Shown here piece by piece: positions 177-62,017 of a stretch of 64,000 nucleotides of DNA. The notes under the pieces are model-generated. The model was not told the DNA's origin, did no database searches, and was given only the letters and a program-made list of their open reading frames with translations. Position 1 is the first letter of the stretch. The number at the start of each line of letters is the position of its first letter. The stretch is from Bacteroidales bacterium SW299. Lineage in GTDB: Bacteria; Bacteroidota; Bacteroidia; Bacteroidales; Bacteroidaceae. The translations under genes were made by a program, and so were the position numbers. Location: positions 1-64,000 of the forward strand of contig SDWH01000014.1 of NCBI GenBank assembly GCA_019550975.1. The letters are read 5' to 3'.

Positions 177-400
177 ACTAAAGACAAACTTTTTTCAAAC
201 TTTTTTGCATCCCAAACAGCAATTATCTGAAAAACAGATATATACATTATATAAAAAGATGAAAAGAAAAAAGAGTAAAAGAGAAGGCCTTATACATATA
301 ATAATATACTTCAAACATTTATTCAGAAGAAAAACTGTTTGACCCCAATATTTTTTAGCAGGCCTGCAGTAAAAAAACAAACTTTTTCGGAAAAATCCAT

Positions 401-484
401 ATCTCCAACCTCAAGATGCAAATCTCCAGCCCAAAAATATATATCTCCAGGCTAAAGATAGACATCTTTAACCTAAGATTCTAT
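401..484. repeat. 21-bp palindromic repeat array 1 (four units)
   Basis: Four tandem 21-bp units start at 401, 422, 443 and 464. Each follows the 17-base palindromic pattern ATCTYYAGNCTRRAGAT plus a 4-base spacer, with some decay (for example unit 2 has CCC in the centre and AAAAAT on the right). It lies between the leftward putative rRNA promoter and the 3' side of the SulP gene. Three further arrays of identical layout occur at 25155, 45662 and 61849. Unit size, copy number and lack of non-repeated spacers rule out CRISPR. Confidence 0.9.
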
Positions 485-750
485 TTAATTTTTCCAATTA
501 ATCATCTTATCAGCTTTCCCTTACGTTTAAATCCTTGAGAACAATCCACAAATTAAAGCCGGAGAAAACTAAAAACAAACCCTAAGTTTGCAACCAGAGA
601 ATAATCATTTTCATGGAAATAAGAAACACCATTTCAATATCAAACCTTAAAATTCAAACAGTCTCCAAGGAATAATGGTTTCCATAAGGAAAATATAGCA
701 CAAAAAATACAGAACACATTCTTGTACAAAAGGAGAAAGAAACGAAAGGA
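485..750. other. intergenic, no gene seen
   Basis: AT-rich stretch with no credible reading frame. A -7-like TAAGTTTG occurs at 593-600 on the plus strand, and related sequences (TTTCATGGAAATAAG near 611 and ATGGTTTCCATAAG near 676) form a weak imperfect inverted repeat. A transcript here is possible, but nothing further supports one. Confidence 0.5.
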
Positions 751-751
751 C

Positions 752-816
752 ATAAAAAAAGGAGTACCGCTGTACTCCAACCTTTGTTAACCTTAAAATC
801 TAATACTATGAAAAAC
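752..816 (-). ncRNA. short intergenic RNA, copy A
   Basis: A promoter-to-terminator unit of roughly 65 nt on the minus strand. After the -7 box the transcript runs through a conserved single-stranded section and ends in hairpin GGAGTAC-AGCG-GTACTCC (778 down to 761) followed by seven U (760-754). The 104 bp from 751 to 854, promoter included, are identical to 10678-10781 in inverse orientation, and similarity continues upstream of the promoter. It lies between the 3' end of the SulP gene and repeat array 1. Multi-copy short RNAs of this kind are known in Bacteroides (the FopS paralogous family is a candidate identity, from memory only). The call rests on promoter, terminator and perfect two-copy conservation. 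Confidence 0.75.
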
Positions 817-822
817 ACATTG

Positions 823-960: not shown

Positions 961-2643
961 TTAACCATTCAATTCCTTTCTGGCCACATCCAATGCTTCG
1001 TTAATGTTGCTGCAAATGTTTTCTTTTCCCAGCATCTCATAAAATCCGGCCTTTTCCAATACGGCATGCACTTGAGGATTCACTCCCGAAAGAATCAGAT
1101 GGATATTCTCTTTTTGCGACATTTCGCAGAAAGTTGTCAAGTTGTGGATGCCGGTGGAATCAATGAAAGGCACCTTCCGCATACGGATGATACGAATTTT
1201 AGGACGGTCACCCAAACGCGCCATGATTTCTTCGAATTTCGTAGCTATTCCAAAGAAATAAGGACCGTTGATTTCATACACCTCCACTCCGTCGGGCACA
1301 GCCAAATGCTCTTCGTGCATTTCCATATCCGACTCCTTATTCGGATCTATCTCATCCGTAATGACAGATATTTCAGTCGTTTCCATCACACGCTTCATAA
1401 ACAACACGCAAGCAATCACCAAGCCTACCTCAATAGCCACGGTCAGATCAAAGATGACAGTAAGAAAGAATGTCATAAGCAACACCACCACGTCAGACTT
1501 CGGATTTCTGAGCAGTCCCTTAAAAACCCGCCAGCCACTCATATTATAAGAAACCACGACAAGAACCCCCGCCAGACAAGCCATCGGAATATACTGGGCC
1601 AAAGGCATCAAAAAAAGCAATATCAGCAACAGCACCACCGCATGAACAATGCCGGCTACCGGCGAACGCCCGCCATTGTTTATATTAGTCATCGTACGTG
1701 CAATAGCTCCAGTTGCAGGGATTCCGCCCAACACAGGAGAGGCAATGTTGGCTATGCCTTGCGCAATCAGCTCTGTATTCGAATCGTGCCGGTCACCGAT
1801 CACACCGTCTGCAACTGTAGCTGAGAGCAGCGACTCGATAGCCCCCAAGACAGCGATGGTAATGGCCACAGGAAACAGGTTTTTAACGGCTTCCCAATTG
1901 AGTGAAGGGACAGCCGCTTCAGGAAGCTGCGACTTGATGCTGAAACGGTCGCCTATCGTATCGATACAGTCAACTCCGCCATACATCTTCAGGAAATACA
2001 CACCGGCCGTCACCAAAACGATAGCAACCAGCGAACCAGGCATCTTCCTTGAAAGCCTCGGAGTAAGAGCGATAACCACTATGCTTACAATGCTAACCGC
2101 CACATTCCACCAATTGACCGTATCAAAATGACGGGCATAAAGCATCCATTTCCCTATAAAGTCACCCGGCACTTTCTCATCTCCGAACCGCAGCCCGAAC
2201 ACATCCGCAATCTGAGTCGTAAAGATAGTCAATGCTATACCGCTCGTAAAGCCGACAATGATAGGATAGGGAATAAACTTGATGATTGTTCCCAGCTTAA
2301 ATACGCCCAACAATACGAGCAGCACCCCCGCCATCATTGTAGCGACCATCAGACCTTCGATTCTATATTGCTGAATAATTCCATAAATAATCACGATAAA
2401 GGCACCCGTCGGCCCGCCTATCTGCACCTTGCTTCCTCCCAAAAAAGAAACAATGAATCCGGCAACGATTGCTGTGATAATTCCCTTTTCCGGACTCACT
2501 CCAGATGCAATGCCAAAAGCGATGGCCAAAGGCAAAGCCACGATTCCCACAATAACTCCAGCCATTACATCCGTCATCAGATTGGCCCTCGAATAGTTTT
2601 TTAATGTTTCAAATAGTTTCGGTTTAAATTCAACCCCTTTCAT
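961..2643 (-). CDS. SulP family anion transporter with STAS domain
   Basis: A 560-residue inner-membrane transporter of the SLC26/SulP family, which moves sulfate, bicarbonate or other anions. The N-terminal SulP signature is clear (LPLAIAFGIASGVSP, about residues 37-51, then GGSKVQIGGPTGAF), followed by 10-12 hydrophobic segments to about residue 430. The C-terminal 110 residues form a cytoplasmic STAS domain with the diagnostic FIDSTGIHNL segment. Length is typical for the family. It is transcribed alone, away from rubrerythrin. Substrate cannot be decided from sequence; many Bacteroidetes members are annotated only as sulfate permeases, and bicarbonate uptake is equally possible. Confidence 0.93.
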   Translation of the reverse strand: MKGVEFKPKLFETLKNYSRANLMTDVMAGVIVGIVALPLAIAFGIASGVSPEKGIITAIVAGFIVSFLGGSKVQIGGPTGAFIVIIYGIIQQYRIEGLMVATMMAGVLLVLLGVFKLGTIIKFIPYPIIVGFTSGIALTIFTTQIADVFGLRFGDEKVPGDFIGKWMLYARHFDTVNWWNVAVSIVSIVVIALTPRLSRKMPGSLVAIVLVTAGVYFLKMYGGVDCIDTIGDRFSIKSQLPEAAVPSLNWEAVKNLFPVAITIAVLGAIESLLSATVADGVIGDRHDSNTELIAQGIANIASPVLGGIPATGAIARTMTNINNGGRSPVAGIVHAVVLLLILLFLMPLAQYIPMACLAGVLVVVSYNMSGWRVFKGLLRNPKSDVVVLLMTFFLTVIFDLTVAIEVGLVIACVLFMKRVMETTEISVITDEIDPNKESDMEMHEEHLAVPDGVEVYEINGPYFFGIATKFEEIMARLGDRPKIRIIRMRKVPFIDSTGIHNLTTFCEMSQKENIHLILSGVNPQVHAVLEKAGFYEMLGKENICSNINEALDVARKELNG

Positions 2644-10709: not shown

Positions 10710-10715
10710 CAATGT

Positions 10716-10778
10716 GTTTTTCATAGTATTAGATTTTAAGGTTAACAAAGGTTGGAGTACAGCGGTACTCCTTTTTTT
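10716..10778 (+). ncRNA. short intergenic RNA, copy B
   Basis: About 63 nt from the predicted start to the U-run. The terminator stem is GGAGTAC (10754-10760) with GTACTCC (10765-10771), loop AGCG, seven T (10772-10778). The whole promoter-to-terminator block (10678-10781, 104 bp) is identical to copy A, although the two lie 9.9 kb apart and in opposite directions. A reading frame on the opposite strand (10602-10799) is only a shadow of this conserved block. It sits between nadA and tRNA-Asp. Confidence 0.75.
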
Positions 10779-10914
10779 ATGCCTGCATGTTTGGTTCAAA
10801 TAGAGGCAACCAGTTTTGGTCGAGCAATGGAGAATGCAGTCTATTTAAGATGGTTTCAATAGATTCTGATATCCAGATGGTTAAAAAAAATAATAAAAAA
10901 AATATTCTGAAAAT

Positions 10915-18867: not shown

Positions 18868-20134
18868 GAAGCATAGTCAGTTCTTCTTCCACCTGTTCTA
18901 TGCTCGGCAACGCCGATTTCAGGTTCTCCGGCACAGCCTTGCTAAGCTGATAATCACTGATGCCGATAGGCTGGTCATAGCCTGTCAGCGCATATTGTGC
19001 GACAATCTCATCCTTGCCCTTGCACAACAGCAGTCCGATGGTCTTGTTGTCGTTCTCTCCCCTCAGCTTGTCATCCACTACATTGATGTAAAAATTCAAC
19101 TGTCCTGCATATTCCGGTTTGAACGGGGTCGCTTTCAGTTCCACGACCACATAGGCATGGAGCTTTATGTTGTACAGAATCAAGTCGGCATAGAAATCGC
19201 TGTCGCCAATCTGGAAATGCTTCTGCCTTGCGACAAAGGCGAATCCGCTGCCCATCTCCAGCAGATAACGGGTGACGTGCTTCACCAGTTGTTCCTCTAT
19301 GTCCCTTTCGTCCGCACGCTCTTTGGCTCCCGCCAAATCAAAGATATACGGGTCTTTCAACAGGTAGTTGGCAAGGTCACTTTGGGGTGCAGGAAGCGTG
19401 GCGGTAAAATTATTGACTTTGTGGCTGTTGATTTGCCTTTCGTACAATTTGCTTTCAATCTGCATTTTTAGGACATTGCTGCTCCAGCCCATTTCCACAG
19501 ATTGCTTCATATACCAGTAATCGACACCTAACGGAAGGGAACTGTTCAGCAGAATCACATGGCTTGCCCAATTGATTCTTGCAACAGGTGATGCCAGGAA
19601 CAGTTTTTCCATGTCCTCAATCGGTACTTGATAAACGGAGGCTACTGTTTGGACTACATCCTGAATTTGTGCAAGAGGTTCTTGCATAATTGCAACTTCC
19701 TTGTTGTCTGTGGATTGAATTTGCGCAAGAGCCTCTTGCGTAAATGTCATATTGTTCAGGCTTTGAAGTTCATCCGTGATTTTCTGCACACTTGGAATAA
19801 TCAATTTCGCATCGGTTTCGATAAAACTCCGTAATACGGTCAATGGATATGAACGTGCGAACTGGCACATATAAGCCAAGTTTCTGACCGAATACCCTTT
19901 CTTTTCAGGATAATTGAACCGTATCGCCTGCGCCAGTTTCTTGATGACCTTACCGCCCCAGCCTTGTCGGTTCTGGTGGTACAATATGTAATTGCCCATT
20001 TTCCAGTAGTGGAACAGCATCTGCGCATTGGCTGCACTGATGAGCCGGACTTGCGCCTGCTCTATTTCTGACCCGATGGCATTGACAAAAGCCTCGAAAC
20101 TTCTTTTCTCTATATTGTTATCGTTGTTGCTCAT
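18839..20134 (-). CDS. DUF1016 / PDDEXK nuclease domain protein (YhcG-like)
   Basis: 431 residues. The DUF1016 N-terminal domain is clear (AQMLFHYWKMGNYILYHQNR, GWGGKVIKKLAQAIRFNYPE, SVRNLAYMCQFARSYP, residues about 38-112). After a variable linker with repeated EALAQIQ/EPLAQIQ, it resumes with RINWASHVILLN and ends in a PD-(D/E)xK fold: HFQIGDSDFYADLILYN, then VVVELKATPFKPEYAGQLNF (catalytic E and K), and DNKTIGLLLCKGKDEIV. Family members often sit near restriction or mobile genes; function here may be DNA cleavage for recombination or defence. A TACCTTTG box at 20156-20163 gives its promoter. Confidence 0.9.
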   Translation of the reverse strand: MSNNDNNIEKRSFEAFVNAIGSEIEQAQVRLISAANAQMLFHYWKMGNYILYHQNRQGWGGKVIKKLAQAIRFNYPEKKGYSVRNLAYMCQFARSYPLTVLRSFIETDAKLIIPSVQKITDELQSLNNMTFTQEALAQIQSTDNKEVAIMQEPLAQIQDVVQTVASVYQVPIEDMEKLFLASPVARINWASHVILLNSSLPLGVDYWYMKQSVEMGWSSNVLKMQIESKLYERQINSHKVNNFTATLPAPQSDLANYLLKDPYIFDLAGAKERADERDIEEQLVKHVTRYLLEMGSGFAFVARQKHFQIGDSDFYADLILYNIKLHAYVVVELKATPFKPEYAGQLNFYINVVDDKLRGENDNKTIGLLLCKGKDEIVAQYALTGYDQPIGISDYQLSKAVPENLKSALPSIEQVEEELTMLLDNEKNKQK

Positions 20135-20155
20135 TGTTGTATGTATTGAAAGTTA

Positions 20156-20163
20156 CAAAGGTA
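20156..20163 (-). promoter_or_regulatory. -7 box of the DUF1016 gene
   Basis: TACCTTTG on the minus strand, 21 bases upstream of the ATG. It makes the DUF1016-unknown pair a transcription unit separate from the integrase. Confidence 0.6.
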
Positions 20164-20204
20164 AGCCGAATTACAGGCTTTCCATGAAACTTGATGATTG
20201 TTTT

Positions 20205-21491
20205 TTACAGTTGGTTGAATTTGCTCATCGCATTGGCTTTCACATCATCAGCGATGTCAATGTAAGGTTTCATCGCCTTGTAGTCGCTATGCCCCGTCCA
20301 TTTCATGACCACCTGAGCCGGAATGCCGAGAGCCAGAGCGTTACAGATGAAAGTCCTTCTCCCGGCATGGGTGCCCAGCAATGCGTATTTGGGTGTAATG
20401 GTGTCTATACGGCTGCTTCCTTTGTAGTAGGTTTCACTTACAGGCTCGTTGATTTCGGCAAGCTCGCCCAACTCCTTCAAATAATCGTTCATCTTTTGGT
20501 TGCTGATGACCGGGAGAGCCTTATGCCCCTCAAACTCCACATCTTTATATTTATCCAGTATCGCCTTGCTGTGGTTGTTCAGCTCGATGATAAGCCTTTC
20601 GGCGGTCTTTACGGTGGTGATTTCTATAAATCCGTCCCTGATGTCGCTTTTCTTCAGATTATGTACATCCGAATACCGGAGTCCGGTAAAGCAACAGAAC
20701 AGAAAGACATCCCTCACCCGTTCAAGATATTGCTTGGTTTCGGGTATCTGATAATTTTTGAGTTTGTTCAGTTCTTCCCAAGTGAGGAATATCACCTTTT
20801 TCGGTGTGCTTCGCAATTTGGGGTTGAAATCTTCATAGGCATTGTTCATGCAATACCCTTTCTTGGTACACCAGCGCAGAAACCATTTCAGATAAGCGAC
20901 TTGTTTCATGATGGATGTGTTCCGCATATCTTCGGTGTCTTTCAGGAAATTCACATACTTTGTCAGTTTGGGCTCGTCCAACGATTCAAATGTCAGCCCC
21001 TTGTCGAATTTTTCAAGATGTTTCCTGACTGCGGCAAATTTCTCATAGGTGGCATCAGACCAGCCGTTTTGCGTACCGCACTCCTTGATGAACTCATCAA
21101 ACACCTCCAAAGGCAGAAATACGACCGGAGCCTGTTCCTCATCTTCCTTTTTTCCATTGTGCAATCTGTTGAACGCGTCCTTTACCTGCTCGGTAGTCGG
21201 CATAAATCCCTGCACCTCGAACTCCTTGAAGATGTTCTGTATTTCGGTGTAGTATTTCAGCAAGTCCGCATTGATTTCCGATGCACTTTGCTTCAGCTTG
21301 TTGGTGCATCCGTTCTTCACACGCTGCTTGTCGGCATCCCATTTAGCGACATCAATGCGGTAGCCTGTCGTGAACTCGATGCGGTGGCTGTCAAAAACAA
21401 CACGCATACGGATAGGGACATTCTCCACGATTGGCACTCCGTTCTTCTTGCGGCTTTCCAATGAAAAGATGATGTTTCTCTTGATGTTCAT
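20205..21491 (-). CDS. int: tyrosine recombinase (site-specific integrase)
   Basis: About 428 residues from the ATG at 21491 (MNIKRNIIFSLESRKKNG); a start at 21527 would add a non-conserved extension. N-terminal arm-binding region, a core-binding SAM-like domain (about residues 105-200) and a C-terminal catalytic domain with the R in CFTGLRYSDVHNL, the H-x-x-R box in GTHAGRRTFICNAL, HSDYKAMKPYIDIADD with the second histidine and the tyrosine nucleophile. It inserts and excises the element at the tRNA-Asp 3' end. It is the gene nearest attR, as usual for such elements. Confidence 0.95.
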   Translation of the reverse strand: MNIKRNIIFSLESRKKNGVPIVENVPIRMRVVFDSHRIEFTTGYRIDVAKWDADKQRVKNGCTNKLKQSASEINADLLKYYTEIQNIFKEFEVQGFMPTTEQVKDAFNRLHNGKKEDEEQAPVVFLPLEVFDEFIKECGTQNGWSDATYEKFAAVRKHLEKFDKGLTFESLDEPKLTKYVNFLKDTEDMRNTSIMKQVAYLKWFLRWCTKKGYCMNNAYEDFNPKLRSTPKKVIFLTWEELNKLKNYQIPETKQYLERVRDVFLFCCFTGLRYSDVHNLKKSDIRDGFIEITTVKTAERLIIELNNHSKAILDKYKDVEFEGHKALPVISNQKMNDYLKELGELAEINEPVSETYYKGSSRIDTITPKYALLGTHAGRRTFICNALALGIPAQVVMKWTGHSDYKAMKPYIDIADDVKANAMSKFNQL

Positions 21492-21645
21492 AGCTGGGTG
21501 TATTAAAATCAACACCCAAATATACACCCAATAATTGAAACAGCAAAAGGTATTTAATGATATTTAGTAATATAGTTTATTTGTAATAACTTGATTATTA
21601 TCAGTATATTGCAGTTTTATGAGATTTCTTGATTGTGTAAGTTAA

Positions 21646-25036: not shown

Positions 25037-25154
25037 AACTCTGCAGGTCGGTCCGGGTAATCAAGGCAAGGCTATGCGTGCTAAGATGTGGCGGTGCAGG
25101 ACAGGGAGGGCCATGCAAGCCGCATGGAAATCTGCCATTCCCATGAAAATCTGT

Positions 25155-25238
25155 ATCTCTAGCCTAGAGATATGAATCTCCAGCTTAGAGATACATGTCT
25201 TCAGGCTGAAAATATATATATCCAGCCTGGATATGAAT
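25155..25238. repeat. 21-bp palindromic repeat array 2 (four units)
   Basis: Units at 25155, 25176, 25197 and 25218. Unit 1 core ATCTCTAGCCTAGAGAT and unit 4 core ATATCCAGCCTGGATAT are both perfect palindromes around a central C but differ at paired positions, so the symmetry is conserved by compensating changes. A degenerate partial unit may precede it (near 25139). It lies between the convergent ends of the DUF2490 gene and folK. Confidence 0.92.
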
Positions 25239-25268
25239 TTTCTGTAAAGTCCGGCGGTTTTTTTATGG

Positions 25269-42386: not shown

Positions 42387-42422
42387 TTTAGTATCGTTTG
42401 CTATTGTTGATATTTGACCGTT

Positions 42423-42443
42423 GACAGCTAACAGCCAGCTGTC
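42423..42443 (-). repeat. hairpin between susC and susD
   Basis: GACAGCT (42423-42429) pairs with AGCTGTC (42437-42443); CAGCTG and GCTGNNAG repeats extend the structure. With no T-run, it may stabilise or limit expression of the downstream genes in the PUL transcript. Confidence 0.6.
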
Positions 42444-42478
42444 AGCAGCCGGTTGTCAATTGTTGATTATCGGTTAGT

Positions 42479-45526: not shown

Positions 45527-45661
45527 GAGAATGGAAATATGGAACAACGACAAATATTGGACATATCAAGACAATTTTTGGACAAAAGCCTGTGGAGGGT
45601 GTCCGAAAGGCTTTTCGGGCTTGTGCAGCTTGGTCTGATTTGTGTGCAGGGAAGGTTCAAG

Positions 45662-45745
45662 GTCTTTAGTCTAGAGATATGCATCTCCTGTCTGAGGATA
45701 TGTATCTTTAGTCTGAAGATTTATATCTCCAGTCTGAAGATAAAG
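45662..45745. repeat. 21-bp palindromic repeat array 3 (four units)
   Basis: Units at 45662, 45683, 45704 and 45725; examples are ATCTCCTGTCTGAGGAT and ATCTCCAGTCTGAAGAT. The 21-bp period makes every frame repeat seven residues, which explains apparent small reading frames here. This copy lies between divergently transcribed susC and metK, upstream of both promoters. Confidence 0.92.
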
Positions 45746-45831
45746 ATTGGTTTGCGGTGCCCGGCTTTTGCCTTCCTGTGTCTGCTATGTTAAAAATAGA
45801 GTAAGGCTGCATTTATTCCGATAATAAATTC

Positions 45832-45839: not shown

Positions 45840-45854
45840 CAGGCGAAATAAAAA

Positions 45855-45915
45855 AAGTGGAAAGATTTGAGTAGCTTGCAACCACGGAAAAAAATGCTAA
45901 AACACAGACTTGTTT
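45855..45915 (+). promoter_or_regulatory. probable SAM-II riboswitch in the metK leader
   Basis: It starts just after the predicted transcript start. P1 is GTGG (45857-45860) with CCAC (45882-45885); inside are the SAM-II-like GATTTGA and GCTTGCAA; downstream is the conserved AAAATGCTAAAAC (45891-45903), and ACTT near 45908 can pair back to GAGT in the loop as an H-type pseudoknot. Family match is by recall of the consensus, not by alignment. A location before S-adenosylmethionine synthetase fits feedback by SAM. It lies 74 bases before the start codon, further than in many SAM-II examples. Confidence 0.65.
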
Positions 45916-61797: not shown

Positions 61798-61848
61798 ATG
61801 CGTGTGGGGCTTCCCACATCAAACCTTTTCTGAAAGGATAAAATCTCT

Positions 61849-61932
61849 TTCTCCAGGTTAAAGATATGTATCTCCAGTCTGGAGATACATATCTTTAACC
61901 TGAAGATGCATATCTTTAGGCTGAAGACAGAA
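61849..61932. repeat. 21-bp palindromic repeat array 4 (four units)
   Basis: Units at 61849, 61870, 61891 and 61912. Unit 2 has the perfect palindrome ATCTCCAGTCTGGAGAT; others carry TTTA or TTAA changes at paired positions. It lies between the tandem genes ppx and mutS; the mutS promoter is downstream. A degenerate partial unit may precede it. Confidence 0.92.
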
Positions 61933-62017
61933 ATGTGGCTGGCATTTCTGTCTTTTTGTATCCGGAACTTCCGGAGTGTTCTGCCCGGCGCATCCTCCTT
62001 TTTCGTATGCCCGAGAA

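Follow-up and report, generated by a model that had tools for sequence, protein, structure and literature searches.

Four-unit palindromic arrays of constant layout and changing sequence in Bacteroidales, putative sites for a chromosome-organising protein

Introduction

The window analysed here, a 64-kb stretch (C6:1-64000) of the 3.87-Mb, 64-contig draft genome of a Phocaeicola sp. (genome G000), contains four intergenic arrays of short palindromes. They raise the question left by a first-pass annotation of this DNA, namely whether such arrays are binding sites for a nucleoid protein or regulator, or copies of a selfish repeat. The arrays are real and part of a wider class across Bacteroidales, in which the letters differ between species and the layout is constant, and they look like sites for an unrecognised chromosome-organising protein. 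The folding and segregation of Bacteroidales chromosomes, and the role of their many HU-HIG proteins, are not settled in the open-access literature searched.

Results

Arrays of the window and their neighbours

Each of the four arrays (starts at 401, 25155, 45662 and 61849) consists of four units whose starts lie 21 bp apart. A unit is a 17-bp near-palindrome about one central base, and the units are separated by 4-bp spacers, so that the exact repeated core measures 80 bp (4x17 + 3x4). The first-pass annotation, which described four arrays of 84 bp (4x21), was right about the four units and the 21-bp starts, its length including a trailing spacer that is not part of the core. The 16 units match ATCTYYAGNCTRRAGAT at 13-17 of 17 positions; outside the arrays, the 64 kb hold 3 matches to it scoring at least 14, and shuffles give 1-3. 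The arrays and their neighbouring genes are:

401..480, no strand assigned: array 1, units at 401, 422, 443 and 464, the fourth one base short and degenerate
961-2643, minus strand: SulP-type sulfate permease gene, neighbour of array 1, which lies on the 3' end side of the gene
25155..25234, no strand assigned: array 2, four 17-bp units with 4-bp spacers, between the convergent genes DUF2490 (plus) and folK (minus)
45662..45741, no strand assigned: array 3, four units, between the divergent genes for a TonB-dependent receptor (minus) and metK with its SAM-II riboswitch (plus)
61849..61928, no strand assigned: array 4, four units, between the parallel genes for Ppx/GppA (plus) and mutS (plus)

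The MutS protein of the window shares 95% identity with its counterpart in an uncultured Phocaeicola bin, and 87% with those of P. coprophilus and P. coprocola. The SAM-II riboswitch (RF01726) occupies 45851-45910, between array 3 and metK, and two copies of the FopS sRNA family of Bacteroidetes (RF04319) were found at 751-818 (minus strand) and 10714-10781 (plus strand). A lone 21-bp-periodic block (CAGCTAACAGCCAGCTGTCAG-like, 42391-42470), weaker than the arrays, lies upstream of an operon gene. The stretch 20000-21633, part of the integrated element mentioned in the first-pass annotation, matches a plasmid record of Parabacteroides distasonis at 75% identity over an integrase / PDDEXK nuclease stretch.

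Compared with the nearest relative (G203), the segment ~24300-45600 is inverted, with the folK side and the TonB-receptor side swapped. Arrays were considered and rejected as the breakpoints of this ~20-kb inversion: array 3 lies at one breakpoint and the other has no array. The adjacency of folK and metK is retained in G204, G205, G206, G080 and G094. An array is present upstream of metK in G094 as well as in the window, and arrays of other sequence lie upstream of metK in G013 (L277:3041-3127, ~250 bp) and G002 (L281:3361-3470, ~570 bp).

Unit number and period

Genome-wide, cores of the window's family (hereafter family A) with at most 2 mismatches numbered 291, compared to 7 for the reversed pattern, and unit pairs numbered 183-192 compared to 0. 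In the 1.354 Mb of contiguous G000 sequence covered by the census, where an array was defined as two or more units, 36 family-A arrays were found. Thirty-one of them had four units, three had two, one had three and one reads as five, while 101 of the 102 gaps were exactly 21 bp, so that unit number does not vary freely among copies. An earlier, partly array-centred sample of the same genome gave four units in 42 of 52 arrays, with 2 more made of four units plus a chance match, and gaps of 21 bp in 143 of 146 cases. Four units were also the rule elsewhere (29/31 arrays in G051, 8/10 in G094, and all 7 loci read in genus g3); the nearest relative, G203, carries three remnants with 2-3 units each.

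The array has a polarity, as its end sequences and spacers are position-specific in an oriented alignment, and the order of the units is informative (positional identity across arrays of 1569.6, compared to 1520±5.5 with units shuffled). Together, these two properties imply that the four-unit element, and not the single unit, is the thing inherited.

Symmetry of the units

Paired positions had been described as changing together, a claim that the wider sample contradicts. In 44 oriented arrays, complementary pairs within units numbered 1105, compared to 1112 expected with partners shuffled. None of the 16 left/right half-site pairings showed strong positive covariation (best z = +2.1), and the central half-site pair covaried negatively in both genomes tested. 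Moreover, the arrays folded no better than their column-permuted versions, and those of G051 folded clearly worse (RNA -42.1 versus -45.4±0.7). Covariation as support for hairpins was rejected on the pair counts, the z-scores and the folding.

The half-sites follow the profile [A/G]T C [T/c] Y Y A [G/a], in which T2 and A7 are each kept in 348 of 352 half-sites and Y5 is 178 C versus 174 T. Variation consists mostly of transitions (498:68 transversions in G000 and 264:1 in G051). Most arrays differ from their nearest neighbour array at 14-27 of 96 bases; with copies this distant and T2 and A7 near-invariant, constraint must have acted on old copies. Two g3 species (G800 and G683) share an orthologous array that is identical over 124 bp, within an alignment whose identity is 94% as a whole and ~80% in the intergenic DNA next to the array, and a second orthologous array of the same species pair shows 3 transitions (38 bp compared). 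Judging from these substitution patterns, independent half-sites and transitions would fit a dimeric protein reading two half-sites rather than a stem.

Periodic flanks

The periodicity extends beyond the units. Counted from the outermost unit into the flank, TTT peaks at +26, +48 and +70 on both sides of the array, with GC-rich boxes in between. By permutation, the register of these T-tracts was significant in G000 (+26 and +48, p < 0.001), in G051 (three tracts, p < 0.001), and in G022 and G094 (first two tracts, p ≤ 0.016), and the tracts are in register in up to four genera. The flank pattern of G051 had 103 occurrences near arrays and 5 elsewhere (321 kb). Within the window, inspection found the first T-tract in six of the eight flanks, distributed as follows:

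373..508, no strand assigned: array 1 with flanks to the first T-tract, TTT in register on the left and not on the right (inspection)
25127..25262, no strand assigned: array 2 with register-locked flanks, each with TTT at +25 to +30 (inspection)
45634..45769, no strand assigned: array 3 with flanks, of which the right one alone has TTTT in register (inspection)
61821..61956, no strand assigned: array 4 with flanks, both of which have TTT in register (inspection)

The right TTT of array 4 overlaps a terminator-like hairpin and T-run 3' of ppx. The whole element is a two-fold-symmetric, 21-22-bp-periodic structure of ~250 bp. Flanking GC hairpins were rejected as part of it, their stems not exceeding those of control intergenic DNA in length (3.95 compared to 3.96).

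Further families with the same layout

A sequence-blind scan for purine/pyrimidine periodicity, which recovers the window's family at lag 21, was used to search for other families. Family B of G000, with the core TCACTNNAGTGA, has a 22-bp period, with four units in 5/5 arrays and 22 bp in 15/15 gaps. Family C (AAACCRCNNYGYGGTTT) has a 21-bp period and four units in 8/8 arrays, as called with a strict motif scan, a looser scan giving mostly noise; the ends of several of its arrays resemble family A (GAAGTTT, GCAGAAT). The earlier suggestion that the sites face the same side of the helix fits the period, which is 21 or 22 bp throughout the families.

In other genomes, the scan covered 848 kb around mutS from 80 other Bacteroidales. 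Before filtering, hits numbered 12 at lag 22, 2 at lag 21, and 2 for lags 18-20 and 23-25 combined; with a simple-repeat filter, 11 were found at lag 22, one at 18, and none at 19-21 or 23-30. Eight of these 11 lag-22 arrays had four units and three had five; most families were detected with a scan that requires four units, so that arrays with fewer units outside family A are under-counted. Their cores were mutually unrelated (e.g. TGGCAANNNNTTGCCA, GTTCCCANNNTGGGAAC, GCAACRTGTTGC), and since each species' motif looks private, the arrays confound repeat annotation. Both these further families and the register-locked flanks were missed in the first-pass annotation. Non-palindromic intergenic direct repeats of the ACAAAATAAGCCGTCATCCAAA type have the same 22-bp period (G000 C12:248692 and L071:6701).

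Spacing and gene context

Spacing between the window arrays is 24.8, 20.5 and 16.2 kb, and the 36 family-A arrays alone have a mean interval of 24.9 kb, values that replace the about 14-20 kb of core DNA proposed at first. The intervals do not vary freely and are over-regular, with a CV of 0.595 compared to ~1.06 for random placement and none below 6.3 kb; this exclusion also holds with sites drawn from intergenic regions (p ≤ 0.004). Moreover, families of different sequence avoid each other. Families A, B and C together comprise 49 arrays with a mean interval of 21.8 kb (CV 0.60 versus 1.07), no two of which lie within 6.3 kb, and intervals below 6 kb numbered 0 compared to 9.5 expected under uniform placement (p < 0.001; 0/6000 simulations). 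Such avoidance across families is not easily explained by repeat recombination or independent insertion.

The region C1:1-300000 of G000 is array-poor, with 3 arrays compared to 10.9 expected (heterogeneity over all stretches, chi-square p = 0.24), and has a + to - GC-skew switch near 80 kb. It is possibly the terminus; a search for dif to fix the terminus yielded no convincing site.

The arrays are intergenic, two calls overlapping predicted start extensions, and were found in 21 tandem, 17 divergent and 11 convergent contexts (200, 104 and 65 for background intergenic regions). The parallel, convergent and divergent arrangements noted earlier in the window are thus present on a larger scale, in proportions that match the intergenic background, and with all gene orientations represented the arrays are not limited to transcript ends.

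Distribution and mobility

Arrays occur in other genomes and genera than that of the window. The family-A motif itself was seen only in Bacteroidaceae, with a patchy distribution (few genomes, high in few genera). Array positions are mostly not conserved between genera, and position conservation was rejected: coincidences are few and about as frequent as by chance, except at the HU-HIG gene (see below) and for weak hints at folK/metK. A mobile history of the arrays is likely. In G000, the two closest copies share 160 bp at 94% identity while the DNA beyond is unrelated, which indicates that dispersal happens. Array 4 is absent in the nearest relative, where divergence of the intergenic DNA prevents recognition of an exact empty site. 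The ends of the element read AAAGTTT / AAACTTT in G094, and two differing end types were observed in G000 and G051.

A search for a Y1 transposase (RAYT) found none in the carriers G051, G022 and G094, and in G000 one 64-position fragment with an IS605-like neighbour. A RAYT-driven REP was rejected on account of these carriers without transposase; a virus or plasmid origin was also rejected, with no exact pair match in viral_contigs and no plasmid match. As a separate observation, contig C123 (L267) of another Phocaeicola bin (G159) has 1.6 kb at 99.6% identity to G000, array included, which reflects recent transfer or bin contamination.

A candidate protein

One and the same gene is preceded by an array, ~30-160 bp upstream of its start codon, in three genera, namely g3 (G800, G683), g9 (G094) and g25 (G051). 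Its product of ~210 aa belongs to the HU family and matches HU-HIG, a family described as 'HU domain fused to wHTH, Ig, or Glycine-rich motif'. Among the other genomes with at least 7 family-A hits, 6/6 possess an HU-HIG homolog at ≥50% identity. Two genomes (G074 and G036) possess homologs at ≥58% identity, yet have no family-A arrays and may carry another array family, and the best homolog in G000 reaches 41% identity (C9:65673), with several genomes lacking family A no lower. For these reasons, the link to HU-HIG is suggestive and not a proof. HU-type bending combined with a sequence-reading wHTH would fit the array anatomy.

Discussion

Each array is a putative composite site for a sequence-specific protein with a chromosome-scale role, a reading to which, on sequence evidence, we attach about an even chance. 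The candidate binding protein is most likely of the HU-HIG type (HU domain and winged HTH). A homodimer would read each 17-bp dyad with one wHTH per half-site, and four dimers would sit adjacent to one another on one helix face, 21-22 bp corresponding to two turns. The HU bodies would bend or wrap the DNA, flanks included, with T-tracts and GC boxes extending the period outward on both sides. Sites recur about every 20 kb, at least ~6 kb apart regardless of sequence family, and spacing of this family-independent kind makes a chromosome-scale job (domain or loop anchoring, segregation) likely, rather than the control of one neighbouring gene. Each of the several site families in a genome would presumably have its own paralogous protein, and site sequence and protein would turn over jointly between lineages, giving a single motif its patchy appearance. 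The two options of the first-pass annotation thus fare differently: the binding-site reading is favoured, the argument from covariation brought forward at the time is refuted, and the mobility that a selfish repeat implies is still a likely part of the arrays' history.

The main rival to a tetrad binding site is a selfish or domesticated dispersed repeat (REP- or MITE-like), i.e. a ~96-250-bp element moved by a trans-acting enzyme, with the units as recognition ends. The defined, inverted-looking ends in G094, the informative unit order (1569.6 versus 1520±5.5), the recent copy pair with 160 bp in common, the (near) absence of family A in almost all Bacteroidaceae examined and its high numbers in few genera, and an intergenic context resembling background all argue for it. 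We nevertheless consider it somewhat unlikely, as no Y1 transposase was found in G051, G022 and G094 and the one in G000 is a fragment with IS605-like surroundings, most copies are old, judging from their mutual distances, and have kept the invariant bases, one orthologous array is unchanged between species, and differently sequenced families mutually exclude each other over at least 6 kb. The same exclusion across families, along with the regular spacing, speaks against a local role of the arrays as operators, through which a transcription regulator, silencer or terminator would act on neighbouring genes. Such operators would agree with the intergenic location, with the position upstream of the HU-HIG gene in three genera and with the terminator-like hairpins adjoining some arrays, but the neighbour genes are unrelated and tandem, divergent and convergent contexts are as in the background, making this explanation improbable.

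A topology site used by a universal enzyme (gyrase, for instance), recognised by in-phase bends as in the E. coli BIME-gyrase case and requiring no dedicated protein, appears more improbable still. The 21-22-bp phasing, the purine/pyrimidine conservation, the T-tracts and the ~20-kb spacing are consistent with it, but several families with distinct, strictly symmetric cores exist per genome and per species, which suggests dedicated sequence readers. Finally, a structured RNA or cruciform DNA, in which the palindromes act as hairpins, is very improbable indeed. Although the units are foldable (RNA energy of about -37 compared to -14.5 kcal/mol for shuffles), compensatory change is absent, the real letter combinations fold no better than permuted ones (worse in G051), a covariance-model search of Rfam gave no match at the window arrays, and the arrays are symmetric in all gene orientations.

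Several known systems share part of the anatomy of the arrays. Phased T-tracts and DNA bending are typical of IHF/HU-type architectural sites; the arrays likewise have phased T-tracts and their linked protein is of the HU-HIG family, and no description of sequence-specific symmetric tetrads for HU proteins was found in open-access papers. The iterons of plasmid origins form arrays of a few 17-22-bp direct repeats at two-turn spacing, with dimers or monomers on one helix face. Unlike iterons, the arrays occur in tens of chromosomal copies, each unit is two-fold symmetric, and no rep gene adjoins those of the window. REP, BIME and REPIN elements resemble the arrays in being short, palindromic and intergenic, in numbering tens to hundreds of copies, and in their patchy distribution between species, but the arrays differ by their carriers without RAYT, the absence of co-varying stems, the fixed four units and the exclusion between families.

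Noc-binding sites number ~70 per genome (PMC4331003). Like the sites of Noc (B. subtilis) and SlmA (E. coli), which have a dedicated DNA-binding protein, the arrays are dispersed chromosomal palindromes, with roughly one tetrad every 20-25 kb and a 300-kb stretch poor in arrays around a GC-skew switch, and like sites of the NBS/SBS/matS type in general they are symmetric and non-randomly spaced. Unlike Noc and SlmA sites, they are made of four phased dyads with long periodic flanks, belong to several sequence families in one genome, and are not conserved in sequence between species; furthermore, the candidate protein is HU-HIG and not ParB- or TetR-like, and the terminus exclusion of the arrays is only suggestive. 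Within Bacteroidales, the BrickBuilt MITE of Porphyromonas gingivalis has 23-nt units, 1 to 22.8 per copy and without spacers, in 19 copies with a long leader and tail (PMC4596501). BrickBuilt and the arrays are both intergenic tandem repeats near two helical turns with flanking segments, whereas the arrays have exactly four spaced dyads at 21 or 22 bp and a total of ~250 bp. No earlier description of such four-unit tetrads was found in full-text open-access papers, where BrickBuilt and the Noc and SlmA sites came nearest, and their novelty is provisional.

Because the geometry of this site class is fixed, and both a spacing rule and a candidate protein are at hand, it can be tested in culturable gut species, and several families of the same geometry in one genome would represent an unusual co-diversification of sites and proteins. 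We tentatively propose, while rating it below an even chance, that Bacteroidales chromosomes may be divided by a hitherto unrecognised system of tetrad sites, spaced at about 20 kb and recognised by paralogous HU-wHTH nucleoid proteins that evolve fast, with several site-protein pairs coexisting in a cell and obeying a common spacing rule. If true, tetrad sites would be a bacterial counterpart of boundary elements, in which the letters change and the architecture stays constant.
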